Shown here: positions 6,693 through 23,395 of the stretch, piece by piece
Position numbering within the stretch: the stretch's first letter is position 1
Layout: every line of letters begins with the position of its first letter
NCBI RefSeq assembly: GCF_020850895.1
Contig: NZ_JADZDS010000051.1
Location: 1-64,000 of the forward strand
Length of the DNA stretch: 64,000 nt
DNA from: Thermomonas sp.
GTDB taxonomy: Bacteria > Pseudomonadota > Gammaproteobacteria > Xanthomonadales > Xanthomonadaceae
Direction of reading: 5' to 3'
Position numbers and translations under genes: made by a program
The notes under the pieces: model-generated
What the model was told of the DNA's origin: nothing
What the model saw: only the letters and a program-made list of their open reading frames with translations
Databases searched by the model: none

Positions 6693-6696
<4 letters not shown>
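5763..6696 (-). pseudogene. SAM-dependent methyltransferase with N-terminal zinc-ribbon, split by an apparent +1 frameshift
   Basis: N-terminal frame MSDALHCRSCGSAELDD...LLRCRQCGLGQRHPIPDADAIAAMYTDASPEAMAYDYE, then other frame NEANAAWALARQWLRERFGNRQDVAVLDIGCHTGRFLGGL...FDAVTLFDVIEHLPDP; total span 934 nt = 3x311+1; shift near 6474-6483. Confidence 0.75.
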
Positions 6697-7975
<1,279 letters not shown>

Positions 7976-7976
<1 letters not shown>

Positions 7977-8878
7977 CAGATATTGTCCGCGAACTCGCGC
8001 TCGGTGCGCCGGAAGAACCAGATGCCGCTCATCAGCATCAGCACCACCACGCCGCAGGAGAGTGCCAGCGGGCCCATGTCCGGCGCGGCCTTGCCCAGCA
8101 GCGCCCAGCGGAAGCCTTCGACCACGCCGTAGATCGGGTTCAGGCTGTACAGCCACAGGTATTTCTGCGGCACGATCTGGCTGGAGTAGGCAATCGGCGA
8201 GACGTACATCCAGATCTGGGTGAGGAACGGCACCAACAGGCCGATGTCACGGTATTTGACGTTCAGCGCGGTCAGCCACAGGCCGATCCCGAGCGCGGTG
8301 GCCAGCGCCAGCAGGATGAACACCGGCAGCATCAGCAGGCCGAGGCTGGGCGTGACTCGATAAATCGCCAGCAGCACGATCAGCATGACGAAGGCGACGA
8401 CGAAATCGACCAGGCCGGAGACGGTTTTGCTGATCGGCAGCACCAGGCGCGGGAAGTAGACCTTGGTCACCATGTTGGCGGAACCGACGATGCTGCCGCT
8501 GGCGCCGGTGAGCGCGCGCGCGAAGAACGTCCACGGCACCAGCGCGCACATGGTGTAGAGCGCGTAGGGATAGCCTTCCGACGGCAGTTTGGCGAAGTTG
8601 CCGAACACCACGGTGAAGATCAGCGTGGTCAGCAGGGGTTGCAGGATCGCCCAGCCGATGCCGACCGCGCTTTGCTTGTAGCGGATGCTGACATCGCGCT
8701 GGATCAGCAGCACCAGCAGGTCGCGGTAGGCCCACAGCTCGCGCAGCTCGGCGCGCAGCGAGTTGCCGGAGGCGCTGATTTCAGTCAGGTGGGCGCGGTC
8801 GAATTGTTCGTCGCGGGCGGTGGGTGGGGTCATGGTTATTTGTGGTGATGGAATGGCGGTATCGGCATCGGTGTGCAT
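7976..8878 (-). CDS. wzm: ABC transporter permease for polysaccharide export (Wzm-like)
   Basis: LRELWAYRDLLVLLIQRDVSIRYKQSAVGIGWAILQPLLTTLIFTVVFGNFAKLPSEGYPYALYTMCALVPWTFFARAL; start could be 8833. Confidence 0.9.
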
Positions 8879-8916: not shown

Positions 8917-9906
8917 CTATCCCCTGATGCCTGCATCCAATCGCGTGTGCCAGCGCCAGGCGGTGGTGATGATGGCGTCGAGGTCGGCAAGTTTCGGCAA
9001 CCAGTGCAGTTCGTTGCGGATGCGGGTGGCATCGCCCACCAGCACCGGCGGGTCGCCGGGGCGGCGTTCGCCTTCGCTGACGGCGATCTCACGCCCTGTC
9101 ACGCGCTGCGCGCAGTCGATCACTTCGCGCACCGAAAAACCCTTGCCGTTGCCGAGGTTGTAGGCGGCACTCGCCGCACCTTCGAGCAGCGCACGCAGGG
9201 CCAGCACGTGCGCATCGGCCAGATCGCTGACATGGATGTAGTCGCGGATGCAGGTGCCATCCGGGGTGGCGTAGTCGGTGCCGAATACCGTGATGGCGGG
9301 GCGCGTTCCGGCCGCGGCGTCGAGGACCAGCGGGATCAGGTGGGTTTCCGGATCGTGGACTTCGCCGGTTTCGCCATCGGGGTCCGCGCCGGCCGCATTG
9401 AAGTAGCGCAGGCGCATCGAACGCAGCCCGTGGGCGGCGTCGAAATCGGCCAGCATCCGTTCGACCACCAGCTTGCTGGCCCCGTAGGGATTGATGGGTT
9501 TCTGCGGATGGTCTTCGGTCAACGGCAGGTGCTGGGGCACGCCGTAGGTGGCGCAGGTGCTGGAGAACACGCAGGCGTCGATGCCGTGGTCGCGCAGGGC
9601 TTCCAGCAGATTCAAACTGCCGCCGACGTTGTTGCGGTAGTACTTGCCGGGATTCGTCACCGACTCGCCGACATAGGCATAGGCGGCGAAGTGCATGGCG
9701 GCGACAGGCTTGTGCTGCGCGATGACGGCATCGAGGCGGGCGCGATCGGCCAGATCGCCCTGCTCCAGCGGCCCCCAGCGCACCGCTTCGGCGTGGCCGT
9801 GTTCGAGGTTGTCGTAGGCAACCGGCGTGAACCCGGCAATCGCCAGCGCCTTGCAGGCGTGGCTGCCGATGTAGCCGGCGCCGCCGGTGACGAGGACGGT
9901 GCTCAT
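8917..9906 (-). CDS. galE: UDP-glucose 4-epimerase
   Basis: [42 protein letters not shown]...YFNAAGADPDGETGE...NLGNGKGFSVREVI. Confidence 0.95.
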   Translation of the reverse strand: MSTVLVTGGAGYIGSHACKALAIAGFTPVAYDNLEHGHAEAVRWGPLEQGDLADRARLDAVIAQHKPVAAMHFAAYAYVGESVTNPGKYYRNNVGGSLNLLEALRDHGIDACVFSSTCATYGVPQHLPLTEDHPQKPINPYGASKLVVERMLADFDAAHGLRSMRLRYFNAAGADPDGETGEVHDPETHLIPLVLDAAAGTRPAITVFGTDYATPDGTCIRDYIHVSDLADAHVLALRALLEGAASAAYNLGNGKGFSVREVIDCAQRVTGREIAVSEGERRPGDPPVLVGDATRIRNELHWLPKLADLDAIITTAWRWHTRLDAGIRG

Positions 9907-9949: not shown

Positions 9950-10309
9950 TCATGATTGTGTGGTCTGCATCGGGGCCGCGTTGGCAGATTGCGCTTGCGC
10001 CAGCTCGCCGCGCAATTGTTCGATCTCACGCTCAAGGCGCAGGTATTCGCTTTGGCGCTGCTGCAGGAAGCGCGAGGCCGCAGAGAATTTTGCCTGGATG
10101 CCACTCGGGGTGAGGACATAGGCGTAGGCGCGCTTGTTGCCGCTGGTGCGGAAGTTGTTGACCTTGACCCAACCGCGCGCGATCAGGGCGCGCAGGCAGT
10201 AATTGGTCTTGCCCAGAGACAGGCCGAGTTCGTGCGCCAACTCGCGCTGGCTCAGTTCCGGGCGTTCGGCCAGGATGCGCAGCAGTTGCAGGCGCAGTTC
10301 GTCGTTCAT
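9950..10309 (-). CDS. MarR-family EPS-associated transcriptional regulator
   Basis: MNDELRLQLLRILAERPELSQRELAHELGLSLGKTNYCLRALIARGWVKVNNFRTSGNKRAYAYVLTPSGIQAKFSAASRFLQQRQSEY; resembles the MarR_EPS family; coiled-coil tail. Confidence 0.88.
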   Translation of the reverse strand: MNDELRLQLLRILAERPELSQRELAHELGLSLGKTNYCLRALIARGWVKVNNFRTSGNKRAYAYVLTPSGIQAKFSAASRFLQQRQSEYLRLEREIEQLRGELAQAQSANAAPMQTTQS

Positions 10310-10355
10310 GGGGTTGGATCAGGTGGGGCGGCTGTCATGACAATGAGAGCAACGT

Positions 10356-10386
10356 CCATGGGTCCCCGCCTGCGCGGGGACGACGG
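10356..10386. repeat. REP-like palindromic repeat copy
   Basis: ccatgggtccccgcctgcgcggggacgacgg; stem ggtccccgc/gcggggac; nearly identical to 10421-10447 and 11361-11392. Confidence 0.8.
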
Positions 10387-10420
10387 CGCGCCTAGCACTC
10401 TCGAAGTTGCGGAACGTTGT

Positions 10421-10447
10421 GGGTCCCCGCCTGCGCGGGGACGACGG
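10421..10447. repeat. REP-like palindromic repeat copy
   Basis: gggtccccgcctgcgcggggacgacgg, identical core to 10356-10386. Confidence 0.8.
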
Positions 10448-10491
10448 GGTGTGGAACGAGGATACCGTCGGGGCATACTGGACACTTTCCA

Positions 10492-10523
10492 CCGTCATGC
10501 CCGCGAAGGCGGGCATCCATGGA
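10492..10523. repeat. REP-like palindromic repeat copy, opposite orientation
   Basis: ccgtcatgcccgcgaaggcgggcatccatgga, inverted orientation of the same family. Confidence 0.75.
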
Positions 10524-10545
10524 CGTTTCCGGCGCAAGAATCAGA

Positions 10546-10568
10546 CACGCTACCGCCCTGCGATAGCG
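10546..10568 (-). promoter_or_regulatory. Candidate ops element (RfaH recruitment) at the 3' edge of a hairpin
   Basis: Minus strand CGCTATCGC AGG GCGGTAGCGTG: exact E. coli-type ops core GGCGGTAGCGTG at 10557..10546; 9-bp stem with one G-U pair at 10548-10568; 99 nt downstream of the rfaH stop on the same strand. Confidence 0.6.
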
Positions 10569-10655
10569 GCCATTTCGCTGGGCCGACGTACTTGGCATTT
10601 CGCGCACCTTGGCCTTTGACCTCGGTACGCTCCTACAAAATCCCACCAAGGTGGG

Positions 10656-11159
10656 TCAAATCCTGGCTGCCACCTGCTGCCTCGGCAGCACCACTTCACG
10701 CACGCTGCCCAGAAGCTCCACCAGCATTCGCACCCGGTCCACGCCGTCGGTCGACAGGAAGATCGCCGCGATGCCCGACAACGGCCCCTCACTGATCCGC
10801 ACCGGCGTCCCCGGCACCCAAGCCGGCGCATCGAGCCGCACCATGCCATCGCCGGGATCGAGCCGGGACTGGATGTGTTCGATCACCGCGTCCGGCACCC
10901 TTGCCGGCGTGCCACCGAAGCGCACCAGGCCGAGGGAACCGCGGGTCGAGCGCACCGGCGCCAGCGATTCCGTTTCCGGATCGGCGCGCAGGAACAGGTA
11001 ATTCGGAAACAGGCATTCGATGCGTTCACGCATTCCGGTTGCATCGCGCCGGCTGCGTCGAACGCGCGGCCACAGACAGGTGTAGCCTTGCCGCTGAAGA
11101 TTGTCGAAGGCAACCGCTTCCGCCCTCGGTTTGGTCAGGACCGCAAACCAAGATTGCAC
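10656..11159 (-). CDS. rfaH: RfaH-type NusG paralogue (transcription antiterminator)
   Basis: MQSWFAVLTKPRAEAVAFDNLQRQGYTCLWPRVRR...ECLFPNYLFLRADPE...VRSTRGSLGLVRFGGTPARVPDAVIEHI...GTPVRISEGPLSGIAAIFLSTDGVDRVRMLVELLG. Confidence 0.9.
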   Translation of the reverse strand: MQSWFAVLTKPRAEAVAFDNLQRQGYTCLWPRVRRSRRDATGMRERIECLFPNYLFLRADPETESLAPVRSTRGSLGLVRFGGTPARVPDAVIEHIQSRLDPGDGMVRLDAPAWVPGTPVRISEGPLSGIAAIFLSTDGVDRVRMLVELLGSVREVVLPRQQVAARI

Positions 11160-11360
11160 GCCGTGTTCCCTATGCGTTCAATGCGTGAACGCATCCTAAC
11201 GGAGCGTGATGCGGATCACAAGTCCCAAGGATAGCTGAACTCATCGCCCCCAGCGTCATCCCCGCACCGCTTCTGACACACGGATATCTGTCCTAGGCGG
11301 GCATCCAAGGACACTTTCCGTTCGGTCCGACATTCACAAAGATCAAGCAAGATCCAACGT

Positions 11361-11392
11361 CCATGGACCCCCGCTTGCGCGGGGACGACAAG
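11361..11392. repeat. REP-like palindromic repeat copy
   Basis: ccatggacccccgcttgcgcggggacgacaag; a degenerate interrupted copy lies at about 11254-11314. Confidence 0.7.
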
Positions 11393-18280: not shown

Positions 18281-19558
18281 TCAAGGAGTTTGCACGGGAC
18301 TTTGCACGGGATTCGGGGCCGGTCGCGTGGGCGGTGCCATGGTCGCCGGCTCGATCCGGACGGCATCGATCCACAGTTCCCCGGCCATCCGCAGGCCCTT
18401 GCCACCGTGGCTGAGGGTGTTCAAGCGCAACCATTGTCCCGGGCAGTCGGCTTGGGGAACCTGAACGGTCAAGCTGGGCTCGATCCAGTCGAAGCTGCCG
18501 ACCAGCGGCTCGCCAGTGGCGATCGCACCGAGACGGGATGGGCAGACCAGCTGCCACTGCAGCCCACCCGCGGAGTGCAGCCCACGCGCGCGCAGCCGCA
18601 GGCGCACGGCATAGGCACCGGGCGGCAGGCGGAGCGGGTGCTCCAGCACGGCGCCGCGCACCGGCTGGTCGAAGAAGCGCAGGTGCATGACTCGCCCACC
18701 CGTCCCTGCTCCCGCCGCCGCAAAATCGACGCTGGCCACGCCAGCCACCCGCAGCCGCCAGTCGAAACCGGCGCCAGAGGGCTCGCGGCGGAAATCGCCG
18801 TTATAGACACGGAGACGATGGCTCTCTGCCCCCGGCGTGCGTGCGACCCAGCGTGTGTGCGCCTCGTCCCAATCGCCCTGCCCGATCAGGGCGTCGATCC
18901 AGCCGGCGAATTCCTCCGGACTCAGGGCGTGTTCTTCATCGAGCTGGCCATAGACCCGATCTGCCGCAGCGCGCGAGGTCCACAGTACGCGCAGCATCTG
19001 CTCGCGCCAGGGCGGATTCTGGCGCAGCGTTGCGACCAGCGCACTGGCAAAACGGCCATCGCGGGCCAGCGGCGCCAACTGCGGCAGAAGCCGGGCATTG
19101 GCCGCGGCGCGATCGGGTGATGTGCGTAGATAGAAATCGATCCAGCGCAGCGCTTCGGGAAAGTCCTCGCTGCGCAGCGCCAGACGGACCAGCCCGCTGA
19201 TGGCCTCCGAATCGCGCGGCGCTCGCTGCGCGGCGATCGCGTACAGCCGCCGCGCCTGCGGGTCGTGCCCGGTGTGTTCTTCGATCTGGGCAAGCAGGCG
19301 GAAGGCGCGGCCCTGCAGTGGCTCGCGCGCCAGCAGCGTGCGCGCGGTCGCGGCGGCGGCGGCACGCTCGCCCTGCGCCAGCTGCTGTTCGGCCAGCGCC
19401 CACAGCGCGTCGGGGTCGCCCGGATGGGCTTGCAAGGCGCGCTCCGGGTCGGCGTTGGCCAGTCGTTCCGCCTGTAGCTGGCCGACGATCCGCCACCCGG
19501 CCAGCGCCACGAAGGCCAGCGTGGCAGCCAGCGCCACCACCCGCACGCCCCGCCTCAC
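18281..19558 (-). CDS. TPR-repeat, membrane-anchored EPS-locus protein with C-terminal beta-sandwich-like region
   Basis: N-terminal TM, PGDPDALWALAEQQLAQGERAAAAATARTLLAREPLQGRAFRLLAQIEEHTGHDPQARRLYAIAAQRAP (TPR-like). Confidence 0.7.
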   Translation of the reverse strand: MRRGVRVVALAATLAFVALAGWRIVGQLQAERLANADPERALQAHPGDPDALWALAEQQLAQGERAAAAATARTLLAREPLQGRAFRLLAQIEEHTGHDPQARRLYAIAAQRAPRDSEAISGLVRLALRSEDFPEALRWIDFYLRTSPDRAAANARLLPQLAPLARDGRFASALVATLRQNPPWREQMLRVLWTSRAAADRVYGQLDEEHALSPEEFAGWIDALIGQGDWDEAHTRWVARTPGAESHRLRVYNGDFRREPSGAGFDWRLRVAGVASVDFAAAGAGTGGRVMHLRFFDQPVRGAVLEHPLRLPPGAYAVRLRLRARGLHSAGGLQWQLVCPSRLGAIATGEPLVGSFDWIEPSLTVQVPQADCPGQWLRLNTLSHGGKGLRMAGELWIDAVRIEPATMAPPTRPAPNPVQSPVQTP

Positions 19559-21093
19559 GGGCCGGCTTCCAGCGCAACCGAGGTCACCAGCCAGCGGTCA
19601 TCGCGCCAAGCGAGCGCGGCGACCACGCTGCCCTGGCTGGAGCCGGCAACCCGGTAGGGGGAGCGCAGCGAACCATGGGTCTGTCCGATGCGCCACTGCG
19701 GTGCGCCCAGCCGGGTGGCGCCCAGCTGGCGCAGGTCACGGCGCAAGCCGTCGGCGCGGTCCAAGGCCGAGGCGCTGGCCCAGATCGGTGGCGGCGTGCG
19801 GCTGTCCGACACGAGGTAGTGCATAAGCTGCTGCCCGACCTGGCGTGCCTGCTGGATGCGCGCGTAGGCTTCGTCCCCTTCCGCGCCTGGGCCCAGCTCT
19901 GTCCGCGCTTGGCTGCGTCGCCCGAACACCTGCCGCAGGCGACCGAACAGGCTGTCCTGCTGCACCGCCTCAGTGGGGTCTGCCGCAGCGGTGGCCGCAT
20001 CGGGCGGCGGACGGCGGATAGTCGGCGCGGGGTTGGCCGCGACGACGGGCGTCGGTGGCAACGCCGCCGGGCTGGCAGCGACTGCGGGAGCGGCCGGCAA
20101 CGGAGTCGAAAACGAAGCTTGGACAGGATGTCTCGCTGCATGCGCCGCGCCGGCTTGCCACGCCAGCTCAACCCGCTCAACCGGCACCGGGGGCACCGCC
20201 GGCGGCGGGGTGACTGGAAGCGCCGTCGTCAGCGGCGCGACATCCTCCGCCGCCAGCGGGACCGGCGGCAGGTCCAATTCGGGCGGCAGCACAGGCAGGG
20301 GTGCGGGGGCGGCAGCGTCCACGTCCCGGCGTAGAGGCGCCGTCTCGGCGGATTCAGCGCCTTCGTGCCGCAGCGACATATCCGCAGGCCTATCCGCGGC
20401 GGGCACTGCGGCATCGACGATGTCAAAACCCCAGGGCTCGGGTTCGCGAAGGCTCTGGCGCAAGGCCAGCCAGCCCAACAGCAGGCAGATGCCGAGCAAG
20501 CCGGCCACCAGCGCCCGATGGCGCTTGCGGGTGAAGGCGGCGGGTGTCCCGGGCTGCGGATGCCAGACCGCCGCCGGCAGCGGGCGGGCGTCGGGCCGGG
20601 TTGCGGCGGGTGCAGGCGCGAACGCACGGCCCGTCGCGGCTGCTCGTTCGGCGTCGTAGGCTCGGCGTCGATCCTCGCTGCGCAGCTGGTTCCAGGCCGC
20701 ATTCACCCGCGCGGCAAAGATGGAGTCGTCGCCGGCATATTGGCGATCGGGGTGCAACCAGACCTGCAGCAGACGGTGGTTCGCCTTGATCTGTTCCGCC
20801 GGCGCGTCAGCCGCGACGCCCAGCGTGCGGTAGGCATCGGCGTCCGCGTGGAACAGGATTTCGCGCGCGTAGAAGCGCGCGGCTTCGCGCAGGGTTGCGG
20901 CGGATTCCCCGGTCTGGAGCAAGCCGCGTTGCGGTAACGCCACATCAGTCGCGTCCGGCGCCACGCTGGCGGCGACAGCCAGCAGCTCGCCGACGCCGGG
21001 TGGCAACGGTCGCTGCCGCAGGCGGTAGCGCTCCGCGGGCGCACTCAGCAGCGCCAGTGCCCATTCCAACGCGGTGCCGTTCGCACCGTCCAT
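19555..21093 (-). CDS. J-domain (DnaJ-like) membrane-anchored protein
   Basis: DAYRTLGVAADAPAEQIKANHRLLQVWLHPDRQYAGDDSIFAARVNAAWNQLRSEDRRRAYD contains the HPD signature of J-domains; later single TM LVAGLLGICLLLGWLAL and a Pro/Ala-rich linker. Confidence 0.8.
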   Translation of the reverse strand: MDGANGTALEWALALLSAPAERYRLRQRPLPPGVGELLAVAASVAPDATDVALPQRGLLQTGESAATLREAARFYAREILFHADADAYRTLGVAADAPAEQIKANHRLLQVWLHPDRQYAGDDSIFAARVNAAWNQLRSEDRRRAYDAERAAATGRAFAPAPAATRPDARPLPAAVWHPQPGTPAAFTRKRHRALVAGLLGICLLLGWLALRQSLREPEPWGFDIVDAAVPAADRPADMSLRHEGAESAETAPLRRDVDAAAPAPLPVLPPELDLPPVPLAAEDVAPLTTALPVTPPPAVPPVPVERVELAWQAGAAHAARHPVQASFSTPLPAAPAVAASPAALPPTPVVAANPAPTIRRPPPDAATAAADPTEAVQQDSLFGRLRQVFGRRSQARTELGPGAEGDEAYARIQQARQVGQQLMHYLVSDSRTPPPIWASASALDRADGLRRDLRQLGATRLGAPQWRIGQTHGSLRSPYRVAGSSQGSVVAALAWRDDRWLVTSVALEAGP

Positions 21094-21097
21094 CCAC

Positions 21098-23395
21098 TCA
21101 ACCCCTGGTCAGTTTCGGCGTTCCTTCGCGGCCACCACTTCCATAGTCATAGTTGTAGCCATATCCGTAGCCGTACGCCGACTTCTGGGCATCGTAGCGG
21201 GACAGCAAGGCCCCGACCACGCGGGCGCGCGCCGCCAGCAGACGCTTGAGCGCAATCTGCGCGGTGCGAATCTTGGTCTTCCCGGCATCGATGATCAGCA
21301 CGGTGCCGTCGGCAGAATTGGCGAGGATCGGCGCATCCGCCAACCCCAGCACCGGCGGCCCGTCGATGATCACCTGGTCGAAGCGCTCGATGGCCACGGT
21401 CAGCATCGACACCAGCTTGGAGCCGGACAACAGTTCCGCGGGGTTCGGCGGCAGCGGCCCGGCGAGGATGACCTGCAGCCCGTCCTCGCCGCTGGGCTGG
21501 ATGACACTGGTGAGTGCATCGGAACCGGACAGCAGGCCGCTCAGCCCGGTCGCCGCTGCCTTCAGGCCCAAGGTGCGGTGCAAGGATGGATTGCGCAGGT
21601 CGCCTTCGACCAGCAGCACGCTCTTGCCCAGTCGCGCGAAGTTGCGCGCCAGCGCCAGCGCCGCCGTTGATTTGCCCTCACCGGGCCCGGGACTGGTCAC
21701 CAGCAGCGTGCGTGGAACACCGTGGTCGGTGGAAAACTGCAGCGCCGCGCGCACCGATCGGTAAGCCTCCGAGAAGCCCGAATGCGCATCCGCCGCGGCT
21801 TCGGCCACCCGCCGCCCTTCCTTGACCTTGGGCACCACGCCCAGTACCGCCAGCTTGAGTTTCTGTTCGATGTCGTGCGGCGATTTCAGTGTGTCGTCGA
21901 GATATTCAAGCAAGAAGGCAGCCAGCACGCCCAGCAGCAAGCCAAACAGCACGCCACGGATCAGGTCTTGGCGCACATTGGGCTTGAAACGTCCGGCGCC
22001 GTCGGCAGGATCGATGATGCGGATGTTATTGGCTTCGGCCGCGCTGGTTGCGCCCAATTCCTTGTACCGTTGCAGCAGACCGTCGTAGAGCTGGCGATTG
22101 GTGTCGACATCGCGCTTGAGGATGTTGTATTCGATGCTGCTGCTGCTTGCCACGAAGGCCTGCGTGCGCAGCCGTTCCACCTGCTCAGTCAGTGCCGCCT
22201 CTTCTGCGGCAGCCGCGTCGTACTCGGCTTTGACCGAACCGCCGATCCGTCCACGTTCTGCGGCGATCTGCTTGTCGATTTCATCGATCTGCTGGCGCAG
22301 TTGGACCATTTCCGGGTAGTCCGGCTTGAACGTGGCCAGTTTCTGTTGGTATTGCGCCATCAGCACCGCCCGCTGCTGTTGCAATGGGCCGATGGCCGAG
22401 GCGGTCAGCTGTTCGGTCGAGGTTGCATTGTTGCGGTAGCGTGCTTGTGCGCGAATTCGTGCCTGCTGCGCCTGTGCCAGCGCCGCGCTGAGCTGGGTCA
22501 GGCTTTCCAATGCCAGCGTGCGCCCCTCGTCATCGGTGATCGTCAACCCCTGCGCGCGGGCGTATTCGACCAGCTTGCGCTCAGACGCCTCCAGCTTGGC
22601 CTTGGTTTCCGCAAGTTGGCGTTCCAGATAATCCCTGGCAAAATTCGAACGGCCGCTGTTCTGGTCCTGATTCGACGCGATGAACTCCTCGGCAATCGCA
22701 TTGGCCACGCGCACGGCGAAATCGGGGGAAGGACTGTCGTAACGGATCCAGACCAGGCGAGTGTTTTCCACACGGGTCGCGGACAGGCCACCGTTGACTT
22801 CGGCGGCTACCGCATCGCGAATGGCGTTGGACTGGGCAGTCGGGACAGCACCGGGCTTGGCCGTCCCCGTCAAGGCAGGTCGTGGCCGAATCAGGCCAAG
22901 CAGCCGACTCGACAAGCTCGGTGCTTCCAGGCGATCCAGCGCGGTCTGGTCTAGATTCAGCCGCGTCGCGACACGCTCGGCCAGGCTGCGGCTTTTGAGC
23001 AATTCAAGCTGGGTTTGCAGGTACTCGTCGTCCCAAGAATAATCCGGCGCGACCTGCCCACCGCCGGCAGCGGCAATGGTCAACTCCGCGGTCTTATTGT
23101 CGATCTGTACCAGCGTTTGGGCGGCGTACATCGGCGTGGTCATCAACGTGTTGACCAACGCCAGCGCGGTGACGGCGGCGGCAATGCTGATGACCAGCCA
23201 GCGCCATTTCAGCAGGATGTGCCAATACTTGCGCAGGTCGAATTCGTTGGCTTCATCCTCGGATGGTTCCTCGAACAGACTCAGCACACCGCGCCCGTGT
23301 GCGAAGGCCAACGCCCGCTGATCAACGGGATCCTGGCGCGCTGGAAGCCGGTCGCCACCTTGCGCCGGATCGACCGGAAGCTTGTCGTCTGTCAT
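21098..23395 (-). CDS. wzc: Polysaccharide co-polymerase fused to BY-type tyrosine autokinase (Wzc-like)
   Basis: FDLRKYWHILLKWRWLVISIAAAVTALALVNTLMTTPMYAAQTLVQID (Wzz); LLVTSPGPGEGKSTAALALARNFARLGKSVLLVEGDLRNP (Walker A/A'); VIIDGPPVLGLADAPILA; Tyr-rich tail YGYGYGYNYDYG. Confidence 0.93.
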   Translation of the reverse strand: MTDDKLPVDPAQGGDRLPARQDPVDQRALAFAHGRGVLSLFEEPSEDEANEFDLRKYWHILLKWRWLVISIAAAVTALALVNTLMTTPMYAAQTLVQIDNKTAELTIAAAGGGQVAPDYSWDDEYLQTQLELLKSRSLAERVATRLNLDQTALDRLEAPSLSSRLLGLIRPRPALTGTAKPGAVPTAQSNAIRDAVAAEVNGGLSATRVENTRLVWIRYDSPSPDFAVRVANAIAEEFIASNQDQNSGRSNFARDYLERQLAETKAKLEASERKLVEYARAQGLTITDDEGRTLALESLTQLSAALAQAQQARIRAQARYRNNATSTEQLTASAIGPLQQQRAVLMAQYQQKLATFKPDYPEMVQLRQQIDEIDKQIAAERGRIGGSVKAEYDAAAAEEAALTEQVERLRTQAFVASSSSIEYNILKRDVDTNRQLYDGLLQRYKELGATSAAEANNIRIIDPADGAGRFKPNVRQDLIRGVLFGLLLGVLAAFLLEYLDDTLKSPHDIEQKLKLAVLGVVPKVKEGRRVAEAAADAHSGFSEAYRSVRAALQFSTDHGVPRTLLVTSPGPGEGKSTAALALARNFARLGKSVLLVEGDLRNPSLHRTLGLKAAATGLSGLLSGSDALTSVIQPSGEDGLQVILAGPLPPNPAELLSGSKLVSMLTVAIERFDQVIIDGPPVLGLADAPILANSADGTVLIIDAGKTKIRTAQIALKRLLAARARVVGALLSRYDAQKSAYGYGYGYNYDYGSGGREGTPKLTRG

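Follow-up and report, generated by a model that had tools for sequence, protein, structure and literature searches.

Does an rfaH gene that lies within a polysaccharide cluster, with an ops-like element directly behind it, form part of a switch serving its own operon, or did the two come together by chance? The question is raised by the window, the whole 64-kb stretch of Thermomonas DNA analyzed here, whose minus strand reads polysaccharide genes, rfaH, an intergenic stretch, MarR_EPS, galE, an ABC-2 permease gene and the gene of a Wzt-type ATPase. A first-pass annotation had proposed a processive antitermination cassette placed mid-operon and made up of rfaH, an exact ops element with a 9-bp stem and three REP hairpins. 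The features of the locus, in the order of transcription, are the following.

Before rfaH, minus strand: wza-, wzc- and wzy-like genes, a UDP-sugar dehydrogenase gene and a sugar epimerase gene, the polysaccharide genes of the window
11193..11221, minus strand: promoter-like TTGTGA-N17-TAGGAT before rfaH, found by eye, 8 of 12 positions matching, below the scan threshold
11172..11194, minus strand: operator-like inverted repeat ATGCGTTCA-CGCAT-TGAACGCAT, just before the rfaH start
10656..11159, minus strand: rfaH-like NusG paralogue of 167 aa, an open reading frame with a NusG NGN domain and a match to the RfaH profile
10559..10580, minus strand: upstream part of the JUMPstart element, with a CAGCGAAA box and a short stem GCGA/TCGC (10578-10575 with 10563-10560), from the Rfam match
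10546..10557, minus strand: ops element GGCGGTAGCGTG, the predicted RfaH loading site, an exact 12-mer conserved after rfaH
10492..10523, minus strand: REP palindrome 1 (palindrome confirmed at 10497-10516), an ordinary dispersed repeat
10420..10447, minus strand: REP palindrome 2 (palindrome confirmed at 10423-10442), an ordinary dispersed repeat
10356..10386, minus strand: REP palindrome 3 (palindrome confirmed at 10362-10381), an ordinary dispersed repeat
9950..10309, minus strand: MarR_EPS regulator, the first gene after ops (TIGR04176, 142.9 bits against a cut-off of 88)
8917..9906, minus strand: galE (TIGR01179, above cut-off), predicted to be controlled by RfaH
7976..8878, minus strand: wzm-like ABC-2 permease (PF01061), predicted target
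6693..8156, minus strand: wzt-like ABC ATPase with a Wzt_C domain (domain match), predicted target; the open reading frame probably starts too early

The polysaccharide cluster also holds, near wzc, a gene for a DnaJ-domain protein (19555-21093, minus strand).

Conservation of ops behind rfaH

The exact ops 12-mer is present at 10557..10546 on the minus strand, as had been claimed, and lies 98 nt past the rfaH stop codon; the 11-mer reported at 22433 on the plus strand, antisense in wzc, was likewise found. Within the 64-kb window, the motif count is not significant (two occurrences with at most one mismatch versus 2.4 expected), and the case thus rests on conservation. The search for rfaH covered 149 relatives plus 399 genomes from the order, and we examined 74 non-redundant rfaH loci. 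Of these, 45 have an ops on the same strand no more than 300 nt past the rfaH stop; 38 carry the T6 form, exact or nearly so, and 7 the T6C form. The remaining 29 loci come nearly all from one family, f9, with the addition of second rfaH copies in family f11; for two of the 29 (L068 and L083), the sequence is too short to judge. After anchoring the 45 loci at ops, we measured 1.87 bits per base over the 12 core bases and 0.09 in the flanks. Bases 2-5 and 7-9 are invariant, while base 6 varies in one clade only. In an evenly drawn sample of the class, the exact 12-mer was found on the rfaH strand within ~3 kb in 29 of 60 rfaH loci and on the opposite strand in none, and named Thermomonas, Lysobacterales, Gallionella and Burkholderiales genomes have ops soon after rfaH.

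A chance match, or a dispersed repeat like the REP hairpins around it, would agree with the chance-level frequency of the motif in the window and with an intergenic region crowded with repeats. The probability of an exact 12-mer in 250 nt is, however, ~6e-5 per locus, and yet the element stands in the same place and on the same strand in dozens of diverged genomes with unrelated flanks; the comparative data refute such an origin, and we give it practically no weight. As expected of a JUMPstart/ops element (RF01707), GGCGGTAGCGTG is exact and conserved, and, judged from the genome comparison, rfaH and ops are a real built-in pair that heads sugar-coat clusters across many related bacteria.

The REP palindromes fared differently. 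All three are real, with a fourth at 11369-11384, on the upstream side of rfaH; the REP core is found at 24 genome sites, with 0 for the control, in keeping with dispersed short intergenic palindromes. The suggestion that they serve as read-through barriers did not hold up, given this dispersal and given that the same-genus relatives examined have no REPs in the ops-marR interval, and for the same reasons we rejected them as designed parts of the cassette. Two further elements were seen between rfaH and ops: a weak terminator-like hairpin after the rfaH stop (10642-10655, minus strand), with a similar one in L012, and a TTGTAGGAGCG-type repeat (10600-10640, minus strand), also present in L011 and L012.

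The genome-wide distribution bears on whether RfaH would act at this site only. The single intergenic ops found in the genome is the one downstream of rfaH, in a 146-contig draft that is ~95% complete, so that more ops sites are possible. Two further exact 12-mers are intragenic, antisense in a LysM/M23-type peptidase gene and in nuoL (genes named by eye). Across the genus, nine genomes have rfaH, and in six of them the 13-mer GGGCGGTAGCGTG occurs once per genome, adjoining rfaH; the element is present in the other three with the last ops base changed, and the 13-mer is absent from the seven genomes tested that lack rfaH. It is therefore improbable that RfaH acts here in the usual trans manner, serving further operons as well and lying near ops only incidentally, the two other exact 12-mers being intragenic and the 13-mer being confined to the side of rfaH. 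The idea is not without precedent, as E. coli RfaH acts in trans (Wang et al. 2020, PMC7593976), and the f9 genomes whose rfaH has no adjoining ops mostly carry one or two distant ops sites, two of which directly precede a MarR_EPS gene. Since such genomes stand beside those with an rfaH-ops pair, a single order contains both cis and trans layouts. In the f9 genomes L106 and L107, MarR_EPS directly follows an ops that has no rfaH nearby and is accompanied by a stem CTTTGGG/CCCAAGG.

The upstream stem and the predicted reading of ops by RfaH

The Rfam JUMPstart model matches the window over its full length at 10580..10546, with 22.8 bits and an E value of 0.042, under the gathering score of 35. 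Among relatives, a conserved stem is found just 5' of ops, its last pair one base before GGCGGTAGCGTG in most of the stem-forming loci. Hairpins anchored at ops exceeded shuffled sequences in stability at 46 of 52 sites, and perfect 5-bp stems were formed at 36 of 52 sites, versus 19 on average and 29 at most in 2000 permutations exchanging the arms between loci. So large an excess was seen at one register only, that of the Rfam JUMPstart model. The pair types include TGCGG/CCGCA, TACGG/CCGTA, TGCGT/ACGTA and TTGGG/CCCAA, and the copy in the window is weak, with 4 bp only. On this covariation, the element is a JUMPstart/ops with a covarying stem just upstream in relatives. The stem would set a hairpin ~12 nt from U11, the pause base; hairpin-stabilized pauses have this spacing. 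The E. coli ops pause has been described as distinct from pauses of that type (PMC11001881). The stem is known in kind, as a stem-loop in JUMPstart elements was already reported by Weinberg et al. (PMC2864571).

The stem originally claimed is a different one. The long pairing CGCTATCGC/GCGGTAGCG can fold (–17.2 kcal/mol, z –2.8), but it is not kept in relatives, and we rejected this 9-bp stem as the conserved part: it is specific to the window, and the conserved stem is the other, just upstream of ops. The proposal that 12-mer and stem would be conserved while the flanks drift was thus borne out decisively for the 12-mer and failed for the stem that it named.

The protein combines a NusG NGN domain (Pfam NusG, E 1.5e-16) with a predicted C-terminal KOW barrel. 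Its best NCBIfam match is TIGR01955 (RfaH; E 1.8e-35, 122.3 bits, under the cut-off of 144.5), and the RfaH model outscores those of UpxY, LoaP and NusG by a wide margin, the UpxY and LoaP scores of 68.9 and 34.5 lying below their curated cut-offs of 100 and 125. Its best fold match is an E. coli RfaH chain, and it is the single RfaH match in the 2.5-Mb draft genome. Of the residues contacting ops in the RfaH:ops structure (PMC5995543), K10, R23, Q24 and R73 are retained and H20 is replaced by Asn; the autoinhibition residues E48, I93, F130 and R138 are also retained.

These residues weigh on a second way of reading the locus, in which ops is a pause site only and a permanently active RfaH with a NusG-like fold is captured in cis during its synthesis, without reading the ops bases. 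A 2026 preprint describes putative monomorphic RfaH proteins that are encoded beside their targets and are ops-independent (PMC13015549), and AlphaFold2, given a 42-sequence alignment, placed a beta-barrel C-terminal domain in its best model (mean pLDDT 86.5), in line with what is reported for those proteins. This alignment is small and contains near relatives only, however, and AlphaFold2 often returns one state only; from the single sequence, the prediction was uninformative (pLDDT 34). An RfaH indifferent to the bases would also sit badly with the invariance of ops bases 2-5 and 7-9 in 45 loci, with base 6 varying in one clade, and with the retained contact and autoinhibition residues, and we consider such a mode unlikely, though with a real share of the probability. 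RfaH proteins without R73 and E48 (L037/L095 and L038/L053) still adjoin a perfect ops.

The clade in which base 6 varies may itself be informative about recognition. In E. coli, T6 goes into a pocket formed by H20, R23, Q24 and R73 (PMC5995543). The T6C form GGCGGCAG is found downstream of rfaH in seven loci, all of family f11 (L016 and L019-L024), and residue 20 of RfaH is Cys in all seven, while it is His, Asn or Gln in T6 loci. The pairing of T6C with Cys20 is a possible natural switch of specificity; because the seven loci form one clade, they count as one event and provide a lead only. The T6-type ops sites of these f11 genomes lie inside open frames, and the degenerate C6-type pattern is too common in high-GC genomes for genome-wide counting. 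A second, diverged RfaH with no adjoining ops was seen in f11 genomes with a T6C ops (L043, L044, L046, L047 and L083).

The start of the unit and the MarR_EPS regulator

The operator-like repeat GTTCA-N5-TGAAC occurs once in the 2.5-Mb genome, before rfaH. In 185 non-redundant related rfaH loci, we counted 115 sites in 103 loci versus a mean of 1.6 for 59 permuted half-sites, and the 5-nt spacing is the only one enriched. In same-genus genomes with the window layout, the repeat precedes rfaH and is 640-1000 nt from MarR_EPS; in those without rfaH, it lies 30-43 nt upstream of five of six MarR_EPS genes. Judged from its position in the two layouts, the repeat is a mark of where the MarR_EPS-containing unit begins, and the rfaH-ops pair looks as if it had been inserted between operator and marR. 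As the repeat precedes MarR_EPS in relatives without rfaH, MarR_EPS is its likely ligand. A search with a CG-extended operator raised the notion that the repeat tracks rfaH rather than MarR_EPS; we discarded it, as the unextended repeat was found at MarR_EPS promoters in genomes without rfaH. Close to the repeat, TTGTGA-N17-TAGGAT may function as the promoter of rfaH, its position and spacing being preserved in same-genus relatives.

The f9 family complicates the assignment of the ligand. Its loci with ops before MarR_EPS and rfaH absent have no repeat nearby and are not simply explained by MarR_EPS binding this operator, and some f9 rfaH genes have the repeat but no MarR_EPS within the sequence examined. 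Both observations would suit a regulator encoded elsewhere as the protein that binds GTTCA-N5-TGAAC. Against such a regulator stand the same-genus MarR_EPS genes preceded by the repeat in genomes without rfaH and the finding that, in three module gene orders, the repeat starts a unit containing a MarR-type gene; we judge it doubtful, if less so than the base-blind RfaH considered above. Binding by MarR_EPS itself is the likelier account, and no operator for this family was found in the open-access literature searched.

Gene order was compared using only neighbors confirmed by Pfam, since the simple ORF caller is unreliable at the high GC content here. The order rfaH, MarR_EPS and then epimerase or ABC-2 permease is common to the window, L121, L122 and L124, with a same-strand sugar epimerase downstream of the module in L121 and L124 and an ABC-2 permease in L122 and L124. 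Other arrangements exist: MarR_EPS-rfaH-ops is common, ops-MarR_EPS-rfaH is also found, and in other Gammaproteobacteria a common layout is rfaH, a distant MarR-like gene and then ops. The last is seen in L207, L211, L223, L226 and others of the class-level sample, in the order rfaH, GTTCA-N5-TGAAC, MarR-like gene and ops, with ops ~700-1000 nt after rfaH; it is the same parts in a different arrangement. Among loci with a nameable upstream neighbor, an opposite-strand gene precedes the module in L134 (priA) and L159 (abgT), and the module can thus head its own unit. In the window, the genes upstream of rfaH are on the same strand, and read-through from them into rfaH is possible. The description of rfaH and ops as mid-operon therefore needs amending: the pair is conserved and heads export and sugar genes, but rfaH has promoter-like and operator-like sequences of its own.

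A probable cis-acting cassette and its place among known systems

Considering the architecture, its conservation, the uniqueness of the site in the genome and the covarying stem, we think that the locus is quite probably a self-contained, one-site, cis-acting RfaH–ops cassette set between a MarR_EPS-type promoter and polysaccharide export and sugar genes. A promoter with the operator GTTCA-N5-TGAAC, likely bound by MarR_EPS, would transcribe rfaH first. RNA polymerase would then reach the JUMPstart/ops element 98 nt beyond the rfaH stop and pause, RfaH made from the same transcript would load at ops, and the modified polymerase would escape early Rho-type termination as it passes marR_EPS, galE, wzm, wzt and what follows. 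With rfaH placed upstream of ops, its own expression would be independent of RfaH, giving a feed-forward switch.

Extended to the order, the model would make RfaH a dedicated antiterminator of its own operon, produced from the leading transcript and handed over at an ops ~100 nt downstream, with initiation gated by a MarR_EPS encoded behind ops, the cassette mobile as a unit and one clade re-addressed through ops T6C and the change of residue 20, the base-6 contact, to Cys. We offer this wider version tentatively, at somewhat less than even chances.

The resemblance to the E. coli RfaH–ops/JUMPstart system (RF01707) extends to a NusG paralogue with NGN and KOW domains, an identical 12-nt ops, polysaccharide targets and a stem that adjoins ops on its upstream side and shares the register of the Rfam model. 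The difference is that only one intergenic ops was found here genome-wide and that rfaH precedes it by ~100 nt, in the same direction of transcription. Like UpxY (Bacteroides), TaA (Myxococcus), LoaP (Bacillus) and plasmid NusG paralogues, the antiterminator is encoded inside the operon that it presumably serves; Wang et al. (PMC7593976) call the recruitment mode of such operon-encoded paralogues unknown. The window protein is distinguished from UpxY and LoaP by being closest to RfaH in sequence and by having an E. coli-type ops. With the putative monomorphic cis RfaH (PMC13015549), it shares an rfaH adjoining a polysaccharide operon and an AlphaFold2 beta-barrel C-terminal domain, but the preprint couples cis action with ops-independence, whereas the window retains ops and most of the residues that read it. 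In Wang et al., the RfaH clusters CL2-CL8 have envelope genes as neighbors, and CL4 has an associated HTH regulator, possibly this MarR_EPS; that paper describes the gene neighbors, and in the parts consulted no ops beside rfaH, stem or operator is reported (PMC7593976). More widely, no conserved ops behind rfaH was found in the open-access literature searched.

Among transcription factors, RfaH serves as the model for fold switching, and only for the E. coli protein, which acts in trans, has recruitment been worked out in detail. A cis rfaH with a strictly conserved ops, here and in many relatives, offers a natural test of the idea that acting in cis goes with ops-independence, and the genomes with a single site are a clean system for the study of RfaH. 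The clade combining C20 with C6 may provide a naturally altered RfaH–ops specificity to study, and GTTCA-N5-TGAAC is the first candidate operator for the uncharacterized MarR_EPS family.
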